64,000 bases of DNA from Sulfitobacter faviae. Its GTDB lineage: Bacteria; Pseudomonadota; Alphaproteobacteria; Rhodobacterales; Rhodobacteraceae. Below are positions 42,899-53,242 of this stretch, one piece after another. Both the position numbers and the translations under genes were made by a program. The stretch spans positions 2,542,001 through 2,606,000 of the forward strand of contig NZ_PGFQ01000001.1 in assembly GCF_029870955.1 (NCBI RefSeq). Direction: 5' to 3'. Numbering within the stretch: position 1 is the stretch's first letter; each line of letters opens with the position of its first letter. The notes below the pieces were generated by a model. It made no database searches. It saw only the letters and a program-made list of their open reading frames with translations, and had not been told where the DNA came from.

Positions 42899-44142
42899 TG
42901 GACGGCGACATTCGCACAAAAGCCTTTGACGACGGGTCGACCGACTTTGAGTCCGGCGAGCAGAAGATTCGCAACTTCAACATCAACTTCGGCCCGCAAC
43001 ACCCTGCCGCACACGGGGTTTTGCGCTTGGTGCTTGAGCTTGACGGTGAGGTGGTAGAGCGTTGCGACCCCCATATCGGCCTGCTGCACCGTGGCACCGA
43101 AAAGCTGATGGAAAGCCGCACCTATCTGCAAAACCTGCCGTATTTCGACCGGCTGGATTACGTGGCCCCGATGAACCAAGAACACGCTTGGTGTCTGGCC
43201 ATCGAAAAGCTGACCGACACGGTGGTGCCGCGCCGTGCTTCGCTGATCCGGGTGCTGTTCTCGGAAATCGGGCGCATTCTGAACCACCTTCTCAACATCA
43301 CCACGCAGGCGCTGGATGTGGGCGCGCTGACGCCGCCGCTCTGGGGCTTTGAAGAGCGTGAGAGCCTGATGATCTTTTACGAGCGGGCCTGCGGCGCGCG
43401 TCTGCACGCGGCGTACTTCCGCCCCGGCGGCGTCCACCAAGACCTGCCGCCGGCGCTGCTGGACGATATCGAAGCTTGGTGCGAACAGTTCCTCAAGAAG
43501 TTCATGGTCGACATCGACGAGCTGCTGACCGAGAACCGCATCTTCAAGCAGCGCAACGTCGACATCGGCATCGTGACCGAGGAGGACATCCTCAACTACG
43601 GCTTCAGCGGTGTGATGGTGCGCGGGTCGGGCTTTGCTTGGGACCTGCGTCGCGCGCAGCCCTATGAATGCTACGACGAATTCGACTTCCAGATCCCCGT
43701 GGGCAAGAACGGCGACTGCTTTGACCGCTACCTCTGCCGGATGGAAGAGATGCGCCAGTCGACCTACATCATCCAGCAAGCGATCGAGAAGCTGCGCGCC
43801 CCCGAAGGGCAGGGCGATGTGCTGGCCCGGGGTAAGATCACCCCGCCGTCGCGCACCGCGATGAAGACCGACATGGAAAGCCTGATCCACCACTTCAAGC
43901 TCTATACCGAAGGGTTCCACGTTCCCAAGGGCGAGGTTTACTGCGCCGTCGAAGCGCCCAAGGGCGAGTTTGGCGTCTACCTTGTGGCCGATGGCTCCAA
44001 CAAACCCTATCGCTCCAAAATCCGCGCGCCGGGCTTCTTGCACTTGCAGGCGATGGACCATGTGGCCAGCGGCCACCAGCTTGCCGATGTGGCCGCGATC
44101 ATCGGCACCATGGACGTCGTCTTTGGAGAGATCGACCGGTGA
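42898..44142 (+). CDS. nuoD: NADH-quinone oxidoreductase subunit D
   Basis: A 414-residue subunit (49 kDa family) forming the quinone pocket with NuoB. Conserved features are [20 protein letters not shown] (the quinone-site His), [15 protein letters not shown], the [17 protein letters not shown] stretch and the C-terminal [10 protein letters not shown]. The first 20 or so residues form a variable lead. Its stop overlaps the ATG of a 26-codon ORF. Confidence 0.96.
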
Positions 44143-44222
44143 TGCCGCTGGCGTCACCTCGTTTTGAAGAAATTTACGCCGGGGGCATCATTGGCCTCCG
44201 CCTGACCATAGGTTCGAACTAA
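44142..44222 (+). CDS. 26-residue ORF bridging nuoD and nuoE
   Basis: A short ORF begins on the A of the nuoD stop (TGATG) and ends with a TAA whose last base starts the nuoE ATG (TAATG). The product starts [15 protein letters not shown] and ends in TIGSN. It may be a real micropeptide or a coupling leader that carries ribosomes from nuoD to nuoE. With only 26 codons, chance is possible; it has no recognised homology. Confidence 0.35.
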
Positions 44223-45373
44223 TGCTCCGCCGTCTACACCCTGACCAGCCCGACAGTTTTGCCTTCACGCCCGCCAACCAAGAATGGGCCGAAGCGCAGA
44301 TCACCAAATACCCCGAAGGCCGTCAGGCCAGCGCGATCATCCCACTGTTGTGGCGCGCGCAGGAGCAAGAGGGCTGGTTGACCCGCCCGGCGATCGAACA
44401 TGTCTCGGAGATGCTGGGCATGGCCTATATCCGGGGCCTAGAAGTGGCGACATTCTACTTCATGTTCCAGCTGCAACCCGTTGGTTCCGTGGCACATATC
44501 CAAGTTTGCGGCACCACCTCCTGCATGATCTGCGGGGCCGAGGATCTGGTCGCCGTCTGCAAAGAGCGTATCGCCGCCAAGCCGCATGAGTTGTCGGCGG
44601 ATGGGCGTTTTTCCTGGGAAGAGGTCGAATGCCTCGGCGCCTGTTCCAACGCCCCCATGGCGCAGATCGGCAAGGACTATTACGAAGACCTGACCACCGC
44701 GCGGCTGAACGAAATTCTTGATGAGTTGAGCGAGGGGCGCGTGCCCGTGCCTGGGCCTCAGAACGGGCGCTATGCCTCTGAGCCTCTGGGCGGGTTGACC
44801 AGCCTCACGGATCACGAAAGCGGGCGCACGCAGTATAACGCCAGCGCGCAAGCGGCGGTCGATATCGGCGATACGGTCAAGCGCATCGACGGCACCGAGG
44901 TGCCGCTGCTGACCCCATGGCAGCGCAAGCCCGACGCGCCGCAGCCTGAAACCGTGGAAGAGGTCGAAGCCGAAGAGCCGCGTCCCGCCGAGGGCGAAAG
45001 CGCCGACAAGACCGGCATCACGGAGCAGGAGGCCGAGGCCGCCTCGAAAAGCAAGCCGCGTTCCAAGCGCGACCCCGCGGGTGAAACCGTCGATGCCGCC
45101 GAGGCCGAGACCGACACCCCCGCGACGCCCGGCCAAAAGCCCGCGCAGTTGGACGGCCCGCGTGAGGGCGAGGCGGATGATCTGAAAAAGATCAAAGGCG
45201 TCGGTCCGAAGCTGGAGCAGATGCTTAACGGCATGGGCTTTTACCACTTTGATCAGATCGCCCAATGGGGCCCTGAGGAGGTCGCTTGGGTCGACCAGAA
45301 CCTCGAAGGGTTCAAAGGCCGCGTCAGCCGCGACAATTGGGTAGAGCAGGCCGCGCGCCTCGCAGAAGAATAA
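44222..45373 (+). CDS. nuoE: NADH-quinone oxidoreductase subunit E with C-terminal helix-hairpin-helix extension
   Basis: A 383-residue protein, more than twice the usual NuoE length (about 170). Residues 1-170 are the thioredoxin-like [2Fe-2S] subunit with ligands C96, C101, C137 and C141. Residues 175-230 are a conserved-looking spacer, 230-308 a Glu/Ala/Pro-rich linker, and 310-383 a helix-hairpin-helix-like domain ([17 protein letters not shown], then YHFDQIAQW and [15 protein letters not shown]). The same domain type is predicted as an H3TH fold like that of flap endonucleases, but no nuclease residues are evident. The next gene carries a paralogous copy. Confidence 0.92.
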
Positions 45374-45465
45374 GACGGAGATTAACAACGGGCCAAGGAC
45401 GGCACCCACACCACCCCGCAGAGCCATAAGCCGCATCGCCCGCATCAAGGGAGAGAAGGACAGTC

Positions 45466-46338
45466 ATGACGGATATTTCGGAACGAGAAGCCTGCACCAA
45501 GCGCTGCTGGTGGCTGGGTGCCGGTGTCGGTTTGCTGGTGGCATTCCTGTTGCTCGCTTTCGGCATCTGGGGTCTGTTGATGTCCATTATGGCCGGTGTG
45601 CTGGTGGCGGTGATTGTGGGCTATCTGGCGATGACCCTGCTGTGCAAAGACGCGCCAGCCGCCGCACCGCAAGACAACACCCGCAGCGCGGCAGCAGCAT
45701 CGGTTGCAGCGGCACCGACAGCATCGGACAGCGTCTCGCCAGCGGTGGACACGGTCCCTGCCGGTGACGCAGGCATCGGGGCTGCGCGAAAGGCCAGCGC
45801 GCCGGTTGAGCCTGTGGCAGAGACACCGCCGAATGCGCCCGTGGCCGATACGGCTGCCGTTGAGGCCGCGCCGGATGATGTTGCCGTGGCCGAAGTGGCG
45901 GGCGAGGAAGAGCCCGTCGGAACCTCCGAGGAAACAACGCCGACGCCGCCCTTGGCTGACACAGCCGCCGTCGAAGCCACCCCGGAACAGGTTGTCGAAG
46001 CCGAAGAAGCGCCCGCGGTGGTGACCACCCCGGAAGAGACCGTCGAAACCACGCCCAAAGGGGCGACAGGCGGCGCATCGACCGATGGCAAACCCGCGCT
46101 GCTGGACGCACCGCGTGCGGGCGGGGCGGATGACCTCAAGCGGATCGGCGGCATCGGGCCGAAGCTGGAACAGACGCTGAATGAATTGGGCATCTTCCAT
46201 TTCGACCAGATTGCGGCACTTGAGGGAGAAGAGATCGACTGGGTCGATTCCCGTCTGCGTTTCAAGGGCCGTATCCGGCGCGACGATTGGATCGGTCAGG
46301 CCAAGGCACTTGCCAGTGGCGGCAAGGCCGAGGGCTGA
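45466..46338 (+). CDS. Two-TM protein with acidic linker and HhH domain paralogous to the NuoE tail
   Basis: A 290-residue protein. Residues 15-36 and 38-58 are hydrophobic (two TM helices). Residues 60-212 form a long low-complexity Ala/Glu/Pro/Thr linker with repeats such as ADTAAVEA. Residues 213-290 are an HhH-like domain (DDLKRIGGIGPKLEQTL, IFHFDQIAAL, FKGRIRRDDWIGQA) colinear with the NuoE tail. It follows nuoE after 92 bases with a strong RBS (GGGAGAGAAGG). It could tether or scaffold the NADH module at the membrane through HhH-HhH or HhH-partner contact; this is inference. Confidence 0.8.
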   Translation: MTDISEREACTKRCWWLGAGVGLLVAFLLLAFGIWGLLMSIMAGVLVAVIVGYLAMTLLCKDAPAAAPQDNTRSAAAASVAAAPTASDSVSPAVDTVPAGDAGIGAARKASAPVEPVAETPPNAPVADTAAVEAAPDDVAVAEVAGEEEPVGTSEETTPTPPLADTAAVEATPEQVVEAEEAPAVVTTPEETVETTPKGATGGASTDGKPALLDAPRAGGADDLKRIGGIGPKLEQTLNELGIFHFDQIAALEGEEIDWVDSRLRFKGRIRRDDWIGQAKALASGGKAEG

Positions 46339-46356
46339 TCGGGGTAAGAGAGAGAC

Positions 46357-46590
46357 ATGAGCGAAGCCGAAGACAGAGCGCTTGCCCGCAAGGGCCGCAC
46401 CGCAGGGCTGGTCATTGCCGTGACCATGTGCTTGTGGCTGGCCATGCAATGGGCCGGCCCGGCGCTTGGCCTGCCGGGGCGTTATGCGCTGCTCTTCGAC
46501 TTTGCTGCACTGGCCGCGCTTTTCTGGGCGATGGTCGTGATATATCAAATGTGGCAGGCCCGCCGGGCCAGCCGTGAGAACCAAAGGTAG
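46357..46590 (+). CDS. DUF5337 family small membrane protein
   Basis: A 77-residue protein with a basic N-terminus ([13 protein letters not shown]), two TM helices (about residues 16-34 and 43-64) and a basic C-terminal tail ([11 protein letters not shown]). It matches what I know as DUF5337, a family found in Rhodobacterales nuo operons. It sits five bases before nuoF. An accessory role in complex I is suggested by position only. Confidence 0.8.
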
Positions 46591-46595
46591 GCATC

Positions 46596-47890
46596 ATGCT
46601 TCAGGACAAAGACCGCATTTTTACCAACATCTACGGCATGCATGACCGCACCCTGAAAGGCGCGCAGGCGCGCGGCCATTGGGATGGCACCGCCGGGATC
46701 ATTCAAAAGGGCCGCGACTGGATCGTCGACCAGATGAAAGCTTCTGGCCTGCGGGGCCGGGGCGGGGCGGGCTTCCCCACGGGGCTCAAGTGGTCCTTCA
46801 TGCCGAAGGAAAGCGATGGCCGCCCGGCATACCTTGTGGTCAACGCCGACGAATCCGAGCCGGGCACCTGCAAGGACCGCGAGATCATGCGCCACGATCC
46901 GCATACGCTGATCGAAGGTTGCCTGATCGCCTCTTTCGCGATGAACGCACATACTTGCTACATCTACCTGCGCGGCGAGTATATCCGCGAGCGCGAAGCC
47001 CTGCAGGCCGCGATTGATGAAGCCTATGAGGCTGGTCTGGTGGGCAAGAACGCCTCTGGCTCGGGCTGGGACTTCGACATCTACCTGCACCACGGTGCCG
47101 GCGCCTATATCTGCGGCGAGGAAACCGCGCTGCTGGAAAGCCTCGAAGGCAAGAAGGGCATGCCACGGATGAAGCCGCCGTTCCCGGCGGGCGCGGGCCT
47201 TTACGGTTGCCCGACCACGGTGAATAACGTCGAATCCATCGCCGTGGTGCCGACGATTCTGCGCCGTGGCCCTGAGTGGTTCGCGGGCTTTGGCCGCGCC
47301 AATAACGCGGGCACCAAGCTCTTTGCGATCTCGGGTCACGTCAACAACCCCTGCGTCGTCGAAGAGGCGATGTCGATCTCCTTTGAAGAGCTGATCGAGA
47401 CCCATTGCGGCGGCATTCGCGGCGGCTGGGACAACCTCAAGGCGGTGATCCCCGGCGGGTCGTCGGTGCCGCTGATCCCGGCAAGGACATGCGCGACGCG
47501 ATCATGGATTTCGATTACCTGCGCGAGCAGCGTTCGGGCCTCGGCACCGCGGCGGTGATCGTGATGGACAACTCCACCGACGTGATCAAGGCGATCTGGC
47601 GGCTGTCGAAGTTCTACAAACACGAAAGCTGCGGCCAGTGCACGCCCTGCCGCGAAGGCACCGGTTGGATGATGCGGGTGATGGACCGTCTGGTCTCGGG
47701 CGATGCCGAGCCGGAAGAGATCGACATGCTGCTCGACGTGACCAAACAGGTCGAAGGCCACACGATCTGCGCGCTCGGCGATGCGGCGGCTTGGCCGATC
47801 CAAGGTCTGATCCGCCACTTCCGTGATGAGATCGAAGATCGGATCAAACACAAGCGCACGGGCCGCGTCAGCGCGGTCGCGGCAGAGTGA
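46596..47890 (+). CDS. nuoF: NADH-quinone oxidoreductase subunit F (one-base deletion)
   Basis: The NADH-oxidising subunit with FMN and cluster N3. FMN and NADH sites are visible in [19 protein letters not shown] and [16 protein letters not shown] with [20 protein letters not shown]. The frame breaks after [23 protein letters not shown] continues in the next frame with the 4Fe-4S ligands [16 protein letters not shown] and [13 protein letters not shown]. Restoring one G at 47481-47482 gives LIPGKDM and 431 residues, a standard length. The break separates the two halves of an essential active site, so an error is far more likely than a split gene. Confidence 0.95.
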
Positions 47891-48028
47891 AACCCTGCGC
47901 GGCGGCGGGCCTCACCGGCTTGACGCGTGACGCAGGAGCGGCGATAGCGGGCGCGCGTCAGGCGCGTCTGTCCACAACAGGCGCGGGGCGATCGGCAAGG
48001 CCGGGCCATGGCGCAGCGGAGTAGGTCT

Positions 48029-48355
48029 ATGAAATATGCTTTGACGGTTCTGACGCTCAGCGCCCTGCTGGCGGGCTGCGCCAACGATGGCGAGCGGATT
48101 GCCTTTGACGGGCAGTATTTCAACACCAAACTGCGCAAGGTCGACGGCCAGCGGGATGTCTTTCAGGTAACGGTCAAGGACGCCGGCAAATCCATCGACG
48201 GCGCCCGCGCGGCGGCGCGCTATGAAGCGGTGAAATACTGTGTCGGCCACTACGGCAACTCGAAGATCGACTGGACCTTTGGCCCCGATGCCCCGGCGAG
48301 CGCGCTGCGGTTCGATGGCGGGGCGCTGACCTTTCAGGGGCGCTGCCCCCAGTGA
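48029..48355 (+). CDS. Small lipoprotein in the nuo operon
   Basis: A 108-residue predicted lipoprotein: MKYALTVLTLSALLAGC is a signal peptide with lipobox LAGC (Cys 17). The mature part has FDGQYFNTKLRKVDGQRDVFQVTVKDAGKS and two further Cys residues (VKYCVGHYG and a final FQGRCPQ), probably a disulfide. ATG 48029 has GGAG upstream; an in-frame ATG at 48008 would disrupt the signal. Between nuoF and the DUF5333 gene. No function is known to me. Confidence 0.8.
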   Translation: MKYALTVLTLSALLAGCANDGERIAFDGQYFNTKLRKVDGQRDVFQVTVKDAGKSIDGARAAARYEAVKYCVGHYGNSKIDWTFGPDAPASALRFDGGALTFQGRCPQ

Positions 48356-48475: not shown

Positions 48476-48886
48476 ATGCGCACCCTGATGATCGCCGTGA
48501 TGGGCCTGAGCCTGACCGCCGCCACCGTGACACCGGTCGCCGCAAAACCGCCGCTGCGCGAGGTGGCCGCCATCGACGATGCGCTCTTGGACATGGGCGT
48601 CGCCGACATCATCCGCAAAAACTGCCCCGACATCAGCGCGCGGATGCTGCGCGCGGTCAAGATGGCTTGGGACTTGAAAGGCAAGGCGACCGATTTGGGC
48701 TACTCCGACGCCGAGATCGACGCCTATATTGATAGTGACGCTGAAAAAGCGCGCATGAGAGCGCGGGGCGCCGCGTTTTTCAAGGCGAAGGGGGTCGATA
48801 CTTCGGACCCGCAAAGCTATTGTGCGCTCGGACGCGAAGAGATTCAAAAATCGAGCCGGATCGGTTCGTTACTGAAGGCAAAGTGA
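48476..48886 (+). CDS. DUF5333 family exported protein
   Basis: A 136-residue protein with a cleavable signal peptide ([20 protein letters not shown], cleavage after VAA). The mature part is helical: [29 protein letters not shown], here split for length, then [19 protein letters not shown] and a C-terminal [11 protein letters not shown]. Two Cys residues could pair. It matches DUF5333, which as I recall is confined to Rhodobacterales nuo clusters. The product should be periplasmic, the opposite side from the NADH arm, so it may bind membrane-arm loops or help assembly. Confidence 0.8.
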
Positions 48887-48890
48887 GCTT

Positions 48891-50906
48891 ATGAGCGATA
48901 TCCGCAAGATCATCATCGACGGTAAGGAAGTCGAAGTCGAAGGGGCGATGACGCTCATACAGGCCTGCGAGCAGGTCGGCATCGAAGTGCCGCGCTTCTG
49001 TTATCACGAGCGTCTGTCGATCGCGGGCAACTGCCGCATGTGTCTTGTGGAAGTCGTCGGCGGGCCGCCCAAGCCCGCCGCCTCCTGCGCCATGCAGGTG
49101 CGCGACCTGCGCCCCGGTCCCGAGGGCCAGCCGCCGGTCGTGAAAACCAACTCGCCCATGGTCAAGAAGGCCCGCGAAGGCGTGATGGAATTCCTGCTCA
49201 TCAACCACCCGCTGGATTGCCCGATCTGCGACCAGGGCGGTGAGTGCGACTTGCAAGATCAGGCGATGGCCTACGGCGTCGACTTCTCGCGCTACCGCGA
49301 GCCCAAGCGCGCGACCGAGGATCTCGATCTCGGCCCGCTGGTCGAGACGCATATGACCCGCTGCATTTCCTGCACCCGCTGCGTGCGCTTCACCACCGAA
49401 GTCGCGGGCCAGCACGTCATGGGCCAGACCGGCCGCGGCGAGGATGCCGAGATCACGACCTATCTCGGCGCGCTGATCGACAGCAACCTGTCGGGCAATA
49501 TCATCGACCTTTGCCCGGTGGGCGCGCTGGTCTCCAAGCCTTACGCCTTCACCGCGCGTCCGTGGGAGCTCAGCAAGACTGAGAGCATCGACGTGATGGA
49601 TGCGCTCGGCTCCAACATCCGCGTCGACACCAAGGGCCGCGAAGTCATGCGCTTCCTGCCGCGCAACCATGACGGCGTGAACGAGGAATGGATTTCCGAC
49701 AAGACCCGTTTCGTCTGGGACGGTCTGCGCCGCCAGCGTCTCGACACACCTTACATCCGCGAGAACGGCAAGCTGCGCAAAGCCAGCTGGCCCGAGGCGC
49801 TGAATGCCGCCGCCGCCGCGATGAAGGGCAAGAAGCTTGCCGGTCTCATTGGCGATCTGGCGTCCGTCGAGGCCGCCTTTGCCCTGAAACAGCTGATCGA
49901 AGGGCAGGGCGGTGTCGTCGAATGCCGCACCGATGGCGCGAAACTGCCCGCGGGCAACCGTTTCGGCTATGTCGGCAACGCCCGGATCGAGGATCTGGAT
50001 GATGCCAAGATGATCCAGCTCATCGGCACCAACCCCGCCGTCGAGGCGCCGGTGCTGAATGCGCGTATTCGCAAGGCATGGAGCAATGGCGCCGAGATCG
50101 GCCTGATCGGCGAAGCGGCTGATCTGACCTATCCGCATCACCATCTGGGCAACGACCGCGCCACGCTCGACAAGCTGATGGGCAGCGACTTCGACGAAGT
50201 GCTGGAGCAACCTTCGGTGATTGTCGTCGGCCAAGGCGCCCTGCGCGAAGCCGATGGCTCGGCGGTTCTGGCGAAAGCGATGGAACTGGCCGAGAAGACC
50301 AAGAGCAAGCTGATGGTTTTGCACGCCGCCGCATCGCGCGTCGGCGCGATGGACATCGGTGCCGTGGCCGAAAACGGTATGGACGACGTGAACGCGGCGG
50401 AGGTGATCTACAACCTCGGCGCCGATGAGATCGAGATCGGCGAAGGCCCCTTCGTGATCTACCAAGGCAGCCACGGCGACCGCGGCGCGCACCGTGCCGA
50501 CATCATCCTGCCGGGTGCTGCCTATACCGAGGAGCCGGGGCTTTTCGTCAACACCGAAGGCCGTCCGCAGCTGGCGCTGCGCGCAGGCTTTGCCCCGGGG
50601 CAGGCGAAAGAGAACTGGGCGATTCTCCGGGCGCTTTCGGCTGAGATGGGCGCGCAACTGGGCTATGATTCCATCGTCGAGCTGCGCCGCAAGCTGACCG
50701 AGGCCGTGCCGCATATGGCGAATGTCGATGAGGTGCCGGAAAACGAATGGAACGCGCTGCCGGCGGGCAAGCTGGGCAATGCGTCTTTCGCGCCTGCGGT
50801 GCGTGACTTCTATCTCTCCAACCCGATCGCGCGGGCCAGCCAGTTGATGGCGGAACTGTCGGCACTGGCCGCCGCGCGCCGGGCCGAACCGATGGCGGCG
50901 GAGTGA
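48891..50906 (+). CDS. nuoG: NADH-quinone oxidoreductase subunit G
   Basis: A 671-residue Fe-S subunit (75 kDa family). The N-terminal ferredoxin domain ligates a [2Fe-2S] cluster ([20 protein letters not shown] and SCAMQV), then [18 protein letters not shown] and [18 protein letters not shown] bind [4Fe-4S] clusters. The C-terminal molybdopterin-oxidoreductase-like domain lacks the extra length of the E. coli form, as is usual for the mitochondrial/alphaproteobacterial type. The lipoprotein gene following overlaps by four bases (GTGA). Confidence 0.96.
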
Positions 50907-51286
50907 GAACAATGGCGCTGGCCCCCTTGATGCTACTGGCCGCCTGCGAACCGCAGGTGCCGGTGGCCGAGGATTTTATCCCCGATTACAAGGGGGTCGA
51001 AACCCAGCTTTTGGACGGTGATTTGGTGCAATTCAACGTGGCGATGACCAAGGCGCTTTCGGCGCAGGACGTGTCGGACTACGCCGAATGCGCCGCCGCG
51101 CAATACACGCTGATCCGGGGCTACGGATTTGCGCGTCATGTGCGGACAAATGTGAGCGAAGAGGGTGGCATATGGCGGGCAGATGCTGTTTACACAATCT
51201 CGCCGAGCCTGCCCAAAGGCTTGAAGACAATTGATGCCGAAGTGACCGCGTTTCAATGCGCGGAACGCGGCATTCCGACGGTGTGA
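50903..51286 (+). CDS. Small lipoprotein between nuoG and nuoH
   Basis: A 127-residue predicted lipoprotein. The signal [15 protein letters not shown] carries the lipobox LAAC at residue 15. The mature part has [20 protein letters not shown] and [21 protein letters not shown], with a second Cys pair (YAECA and AFQCAE). The start is GTG 50903, overlapping nuoG by four bases, so it is translationally coupled. Like the lipoprotein at 48029 it has a globular domain of about 100 residues. Unrecognised family; position suggests a complex I link. Confidence 0.75.
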
Positions 51287-52334: not shown

Positions 52335-52829
52335 ATGGCTGCGACTGATTACACCCGCGCCGCGAAATATTTCCTGCTGGCAGATTACGCCAAGGCGTTC
52401 ATGCTGGGGATGCGCTATTTCTTTGCGCCAAAAACCACGCTGAACTACCCGCATGAGAAGGGGCCGCTGTCGCCCCGCTTCCGTGGGGAGCATGCGCTGC
52501 GCCGTTATCCCAACGGGGAGGAACGCTGCATTGCCTGCAAGCTGTGCGAAGCGATCTGCCCCGCGCAGGCGATCACCATCGACGCCGAAGCCCGCGAAGA
52601 CGGCAGCCGCCGCACCACGCGCTATGACATCGACATGACCAAATGCATCTACTGTGGTTTCTGCCAAGAAGCCTGCCCGGTGGATGCCATTGTCGAAGGC
52701 CCGAACTTCGAATTCTCGACCGAGACCCGCGAAGAACTTTACTACGACAAGGCCAAGCTTTTGGACAACGGCGAACGCTGGGAAGCTGAGATTGCCCGCA
52801 ACCTCGAAATGGACGCGCCCTACAGATGA
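52335..52829 (+). CDS. nuoI: NADH-quinone oxidoreductase subunit I
   Basis: A 164-residue ferredoxin-like subunit with two [4Fe-4S] clusters (N6a and N6b): [15 protein letters not shown] and [15 protein letters not shown]. The N-terminal amphipathic part ([15 protein letters not shown]) docks at the membrane; the C-terminus [20 protein letters not shown] is the typical mitochondrial-type ending. The stop overlaps the next gene by four bases. Confidence 0.97.
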
Positions 52830-53242
52830 GCGACCCCAAGAACCCTTTTGATGCGATGATGAAGCAAGCGCAGGAGATGGCGAAAGCCTTTCCAGCGATG
52901 GATGCTTTTTCGCCTAAAGGGTTCGAGGCGATGATGGGCACCATGCCGAAGGAAATGATGGATTTCTGGTTCGGCGACACGGTCAACAAGGGCGGGCTGG
53001 ACGCGCGGACGCGGCTGCTTTTGACCCTTGCTGGGCTGACCATGCAGGGCGCGCAGAATGACATGGCCCTTCGCCAAACCGTGCGCCACGCGCGCGAGGC
53101 GGGGGCCACGAAACAACATATCGTCGAGACGATCAGCCAGATGTCGGTCTTTGCCGGGCTTCCCGCGATGACCCGGGCCTTGGAACTGGCTCAATCGGTC
53201 CTCGACGAAGAAAAAGATACCAAGAAGGAAGACGGCGCATGA
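52826..53242 (+). CDS. Carboxymuconolactone decarboxylase-like protein (Cys-free) within the nuo operon
   Basis: A 138-residue helical protein of the CMD/AhpD-like superfamily, seen in [20 protein letters not shown] and [18 protein letters not shown] with [11 protein letters not shown]. AhpD-type members use a CxxC, but this protein has no Cys at all, so it cannot be a peroxiredoxin reductase of that kind. An N-terminal segment rich in Met ([18 protein letters not shown]) precedes the domain. It overlaps nuoI and nuoJ by four bases each, so it is translated with them. Role unknown. Confidence 0.75.

Follow-up and report, generated by a model that had tools for sequence, protein, structure and literature searches.

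A complex I subunit and its protein-O neighbour share a helix-hairpin-helix tail in Sulfitobacter faviae, a bacterium without reaction-centre genes

Results and Discussion

The window analysed here is a stretch of 64,000 nucleotides from the marine bacterium Sulfitobacter faviae (assembly GCF_029870955.1, contig NZ_PGFQ01000001.1, positions 2,542,001 to 2,606,000), and our subject is a pair of adjacent plus-strand genes in its nuo operon. The first, nuoE (44222-45373), encodes 383 residues: a 2Fe-2S thioredoxin-like complex I core (residues 1-234, 44222..44923; Pfam PF01257, E 3.5e-52), which matches PDB chain 8qby_E (239 residues); a linker (residues 235-312, 44924..45157); and a C-terminal helix-hairpin-helix (HhH) domain (residues 313-383, 45158..45370, the stop codon ending at 45373). 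Over its whole length the protein passes the cut-off of the long-NuoE model NCBIfam PRK12373 (599.1 bits against 514). The second gene (45466-46338) encodes 290 residues: an N-terminal transmembrane hairpin (residues 1-62, 45466..45651), a linker (residues 63-207, 45652..46086) predicted to be disordered (pLDDT about 40), and an HhH domain (residues 208-290, 46087..46335, the stop codon ending at 46338) modelled with a mean pLDDT of 86. An earlier note on this DNA, drawn up from the letters alone, had given this protein two transmembrane helices; hydropathy in 19-residue windows reveals one continuous hydrophobic stretch (windows starting at residues 13-46), and structure prediction forms two helices there, 3-32 and 37-60, as the note had proposed.

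By sequence and predicted fold, the second protein is a member of the protein-O family. Protein-O was named in 2025 from the reaction centre-light-harvesting 1 (RC-LH1) photosystem of Dinoroseobacter shibae, where its hairpin is reported to lie between the reaction centre and the LH1 ring; the location of its gene between nuoE and nuoF and its shared HhH domain were reported at the same time (PMC12079452). That paper leaves open the role of protein-O and whether its gene is native or recruited, and terms the function of its C-terminal domain obscure. A Rhodovulum sulfidophilum LH1-RC structure (PDB 9wqv, chain a) also contains a member of the family. The window protein has the traits of this family, namely a two-helix hairpin like that of D. 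shibae protein-O (PDB chain 8yy9_O), a Cys pair, a long linker followed by an HhH domain, and a gene between nuoE and nuoF; the second domain of its match to 8yy9_O, the HhH, has an i-Evalue of 1.3e-24. Cys10 and Cys60 bracket the hairpin and do not vary among 17 sequences from the genus or across an alignment of 26 rows. Of the named relatives, those closest to the protein come from Sulfitobacter, and a newer Pfam family, PF27169, seems to cover protein-O, being listed for many relatives and unreported for the window protein in the Pfam copy used. The earlier note knew of no assigned role, which still holds for the NuoE tail; the neighbour belongs to a family that already has a name and a structural setting.

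That setting is missing here. The reaction-centre family Photo_RC (PF00124) had no match in the source genome (3.83 Mb, 5 contigs, 100% complete) in a search whose control matched Synechococcus elongatus, and the window's protein-O therefore cannot be an RC-LH1 subunit in this organism.

The two C-terminal tails are alike. BLASTP aligns NuoE residues 306-381 with residues 209-283 of the neighbour at 47 of 76 identical positions (62%, E 1e-28), a likeness that, at this E value, is not due to chance. This is the domain sharing that the earlier note had described, with correct coordinates, and all three of its motifs (DDLKxIxGxGPKLEQ, FDQIA and GRxxRDxW) are present in both tails.

We surveyed the locus in a set of 394 genomes from the family, with roughly one genome for each genus. 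NuoF was matched in 390 of them, and we took the first 110 rows listed, which are those most similar in NuoF and not a random sample; 10 rows with short or fragmentary contigs were dropped before any locus was inspected, and one of the 100 remaining stretches (G428) ended before nuoE, leaving 99 genomes from 98 genera. The NuoE HhH tail is found at 96 of these 99 loci (not in G092, G226 and G334). The acidity of the linkers, which the earlier note had stressed, is real in the window (net charge -10 over 78 residues in NuoE, -22 over 145 in protein-O) and fails as a family trait, with medians of +2 for NuoE (n=96, range -14 to +17) and -5 for protein-O (n=72, range -38 to +29). Linker acidity is not conserved in the family; the recurrent features are length and a composition rich in Ala, Pro, Glu and Lys.

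The same tail occurs on quite different carriers. Both window tails fall below the gathering cut-off of Pfam HHH_5 (PF14520; 14.9 and 15.7 against 27 bits), a threshold exceeded by two relatives that share the domain (P0034, 34.4 bits; P0061, 28.4 bits). NCBIfam model matches place the tail on ribosomal proteins L21 and S2 and on the phasin PhaH: the NuoE tail matches the L21 model (PRK12278) at 1.7e-22 and the S2 model (PRK12311) at 4.6e-18, the source genome's own L21 bears the tail, and the PhaH model NF045508 is matched by NuoE (6.8e-20) and protein-O (6.5e-20), pointing to a homologous C-terminal HhH tail. These last matches span profile positions 128-233 and 68-232 of 234, respectively, and the whole-length cut-off is missed (72 against 250 bits). 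In fold searches with Foldseek no match reached E < 0.001, although the absence of a family there excludes nothing. Both 8yy9_O and 9wqv_a, a chain of the Rhodovulum sulfidophilum LH1-RC, are absent from the matches of a model of the HhH alone, which suggests that their HhH domains are not resolved in the structures. Separately, an apparent Hyphomicrobiales ABC transporter ATPase (open reading frame at 808 of locus L228) has the same HhH tail, and the domain is therefore widely mobile.

PhaH supplies the functional precedent: its HhH domain is reported to bind DNA nonspecifically, placing polyhydroxybutyrate (PHB) granules on the nucleoid (Salinas 2023, as related in a review, PMC13052382). 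By analogy, our leading if tentative explanation is that the HhH tails are nonspecific nucleic-acid clamps, most likely for nucleoid DNA, by which complex I and the protein-O assembly would be flexibly tied to the nucleoid. The transmembrane hairpin of protein-O would anchor it in the inner membrane and the long linker would carry its HhH into the cytoplasm; the NuoE tail would hang from the cytoplasmic arm of complex I on a flexible linker of its own. Each tail would grip DNA (or RNA) loosely and regardless of sequence, and membrane energy complexes may as a result be spread along the nucleoid or held near it, as reported for PhaH and its granules. DNA binding by both tails would follow from PhaH and from the fold neighbours; a role of the tails in localisation is inferred, as is the membrane partner that protein-O would have in an organism without photosynthesis. 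A tether or nucleic-acid contact, as put forward in the earlier note, gains support as the leading idea from the PhaH precedent. We know of no counterpart of nucleoid tethering described at complex I.

An alternative, which we consider unlikely, is that the two tails bind one another, or a single protein partner in common, linking complex I to the protein-O complex and, in phototrophs, building a respiration-photosynthesis supercomplex. NuoE and protein-O tails are as similar between the two classes (0.641) as within them (0.654 for NuoE, 0.650 for protein-O), and more similar than either is to nine phasin-like tails (0.516 and 0.508) or to three L21 tails (0.449 and 0.445). Tails from one genome also match above chance (0.681 against 0.645 for different genomes; 70 genomes, permutation p 0.0002), and in the genus this same-genome effect appears for NuoE and protein-O (0.586 against 0.575, n=18, p 0.011) but not for NuoE and L21 (0.427 against 0.427, n=20, p 0.52). 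In G248 (locus L291) the two tails, both L21-like by eye, are 81% identical to each other, with a fourfold-site identity of 0.37 at 27 sites; the L21 of that genome has a degenerate tail. Yet the comparison of protein-O with L21, for which pairing is not expected, is itself marginal (n=18, p 0.053), and the gain of a genome's own tail over those of its three nearest relatives is small (0.681 against 0.668, p 0.07). Because fourfold-site identity exceeds the prediction from codon use in 17 of the 70 genomes, gene conversion between the neighbouring genes explains part of the match; in the 38 genomes without such excess, the same-genome effect shrinks and is kept (0.660 against 0.646, p 0.012). 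The matched tails fit gene conversion plus some shared constraint. What decides the ranking is that NuoE keeps its tail in 26 of the 27 genomes that lack an HhH-bearing protein-O: on this ground we reject an obligate pair as unlikely and place tethering to a common target above mutual binding. The dimerising pair of the earlier note is thus weakened as a main role, with the above-chance match of same-genome tails left standing.

It is less probable still that the tails serve the co-translational assembly of membrane complexes by holding ribosomes, rRNA or mRNA close to the membrane, and do not act on the nucleoid. The tails of L21 and S2 speak for such docking, as does eL32, the nearest PDB profile match to the HhH tail after two protein-O chains. 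However, the ribosome structures listed for the genome's L21 lack its tail (in the L21 chains listed, nothing beyond residue 155 of 228 is matched), so that no contact between tail and ribosome is known, and the sole reported function that we found for a related tail is the DNA binding of PhaH.

The distribution of the protein-O gene was followed through genus and family. In the genus, the protein-O gene is present in 21 of 24 genomes (not in G004, 64% complete; G006, 84% complete; and G018), Photo_RC is present in 5 of 24, and 17 of the 19 genomes without Photo_RC have protein-O, "without" meaning no match in an assembly and some assemblies being incomplete. Photo_RC matched 166 of the 394 genomes of the family set. 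A quick tree of the 99 surveyed genomes, in which 28 of 96 inner branches have good support, calls for at least 15 changes of the protein-O state and 25 of the reaction-centre state, and in 13 independent pairs that differ in reaction centres protein-O is unchanged in 9.1. Protein-O mostly persists when phototrophy changes, and it looks like a native component of the complex I locus rather than a part dedicated to the photosystem. Several observations nonetheless pull the other way. An HhH-bearing protein-O lies in the nuoE-nuoF gap in 41 of 44 genomes with Photo_RC and in 31 of 55 without (Fisher p 3e-5), and its absence is concentrated among non-phototrophs; five more genomes, four of them without Photo_RC and one with, have a protein-O-like hairpin reading frame without the HhH. 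In 11 independent pairs differing in protein-O, reaction centres differ in the same direction in 4.8 and in the opposite direction in 0.2 on average (median p 0.06). Given this link in occurrence, some role related to the photosystem has to be reckoned with. A profile of the protein-O hairpin (A1) matched 209 of the 394 genomes at E 0.01, and its link with reaction centres was clear only at this loosest cut (p 0.006), with p values between 0.10 and 0.62 at four more stringent ones; because the profile misses divergent hairpins, the locus survey is the better count.

Protein-O is under purifying selection in close pairs. By NG86, the ratio of nonsynonymous to synonymous divergence (dN/dS) of the hairpin in the three closest pairs, none with Photo_RC, is 0.029/0.191, 0.092/0.672 and 0.087/1.07 (about 0.15, 0.14 and 0.08), and that of the HhH is 0.049/0.687, 0.087/0.671 and 0.073/1.105. 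Among the 11 remaining pairs, hairpin dS is below 1 in two, with dN/dS of about 0.29 and 0.25, and is high or saturated in the others. These data make it improbable that protein-O is simply a photosystem subunit whose copy here is a relic of lost photosynthesis, its HhH a dispensable decoration. The relic explanation would account for the way protein-O follows reaction-centre genes across loci and independent pairs, and for the weaker constraint in the two further pairs; against it stand the many genomes, in genus and family, that keep the gene without Photo_RC, the tight constraint in the closest pairs, and the Cys pair, which is common without being universal (51 of 72 protein-O sequences across the family) and as frequent without reaction centres (22 of 31) as with them (29 of 41). 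As the gene is kept and selected without photosynthesis, the role of protein-O cannot be photosystem assembly alone.

Most doubtful of all is that protein-O, together with the small hydrophobic DUF5337 membrane protein (77 residues, 46357..46590, plus strand; PF17272, E 1.4e-32), is also an accessory membrane subunit of complex I in non-phototrophs: the order nuoE-protein-O-DUF5337-nuoF holds wherever protein-O was seen among the 99 loci, with DUF5337 between nuoE and nuoF in all 99, but DUF5337 has no significant PDB match (best E 0.43), the closest NuoE with a complex I structure, 8qby_E, has no tail, and the only structures found with protein-O relatives are RC-LH1 photosystems. The earlier note's placement of the membrane protein in complex I is accordingly not supported. 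Among the six PDB matches of the window's protein-O (E up to 10) there is no complex I subunit except by label: 9wqv_a is called NADH:ubiquinone oxidoreductase 41 kd complex I subunit, a mislabelling of a photosystem chain, and our literature search found no paper on the 9wqv structure.

The gap between nuoE and nuoF holds further features. A conserved linear motif, KPSxxLxGxxxLxxRKGxWxY, occurs in protein-O linkers and sometimes in NuoE linkers; we saw it in gap reading frames of 14 of the 99 genomes (loci L067-L166), in NuoE of G066, G070, G077 and G293, and in four of the five protein-O-like proteins without HhH. Its 13 strong matches in the 24 genomes of the genus (E 1.8e-9 or better) are all in protein-O frames, with no strong match in the window's protein-O; of four short stretches around weaker matches, two yielded reading frames, and none of these was recognisable. 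In nine of the 99 gaps (G059, G064, G092, G124, G211, G256, G268, G317 and G368) a further soluble-looking, HhH-tailed reading frame, phasin-like by eye, lies beside protein-O. We rejected these as PhaH: three of the nine, scanned with Pfam and NCBIfam, gave no phasin match over the cut-off, and the PhaH model matches tail and linker only.

Downstream, nuoF (46596..47890, plus strand) borders the locus. In this assembly the gene is broken, being split over two frames with an open frame of 326 residues against 427-620 in the other NuoF rows listed, through either a sequencing error or a genuine break. Four more non-nuo reading frames lie in the operon (48008-48355, 48476-48886, 50903-51286 and 52826-53242): two lipoprotein-like by eye, a DUF5333 protein and a carboxymuconolactone decarboxylase family protein. 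A promoter scan of 44000-46700 found no sigma-70-like site, and terminator-like sites there were about as many as after shuffling (4 against 2.5), which leaves these scans silent on separate transcription.

Implications and comparison with known systems

We suggest, with considerable reserve, that bacteria of the Roseobacter kind may keep their membrane energy complexes tethered to the chromosome, and that protein-O may have been a gene of the complex I locus before its use in RC-LH1 and may still be at work where there is no photosystem. Our search of the open-licence literature found no paper on NuoE and a helix-hairpin-helix, and nothing in the titles and abstracts on PhaH that links it to NuoE or protein-O; within that literature we found nothing on the occurrence of protein-O in genomes without reaction centres, the selection on it there, or the link to PhaH. 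The PhaH link offers a function that experiments can address, the tethering of both respiratory and photosynthetic complexes to the nucleoid, and non-phototrophic Sulfitobacter is a clean setting in which to find the other partner of protein-O.

As a long-type NuoE of the PRK12373 kind, the window NuoE is an ordinary member with no difference found. D. shibae protein-O (PDB 8yy9 chain O; 9lts chain A, "Protein LRC") shares with the window protein the two-helix transmembrane hairpin, the linker, the HhH and the gene site between nuoE and nuoF; its Cys pair is Cys10/Cys59 where the window protein has Cys10/Cys60, and the predicted model of the window protein superposes on it with an rmsd of 1.0 over 52 residues. 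The two differ in size (239 residues in D. shibae, 290 here) and in setting, the D. shibae protein sitting in RC-LH1 and the window genome having no Photo_RC gene. Chain a of the Rhodovulum sulfidophilum LH1-RC also comes from a phototroph, and its hairpin has a weak sequence likeness to the window protein (5.3 bits). L21 and S2 with HhH extensions carry a homologous tail on ribosomal proteins, the three L21 tails being about 45% identical to NuoE tails. In PhaH of Caulobacter crescentus the C-terminal HhH is matched by the same profile as the window tails; the N-terminus of PhaH binds PHB granules, whereas the window proteins bear in its place a complex I core or a membrane hairpin.
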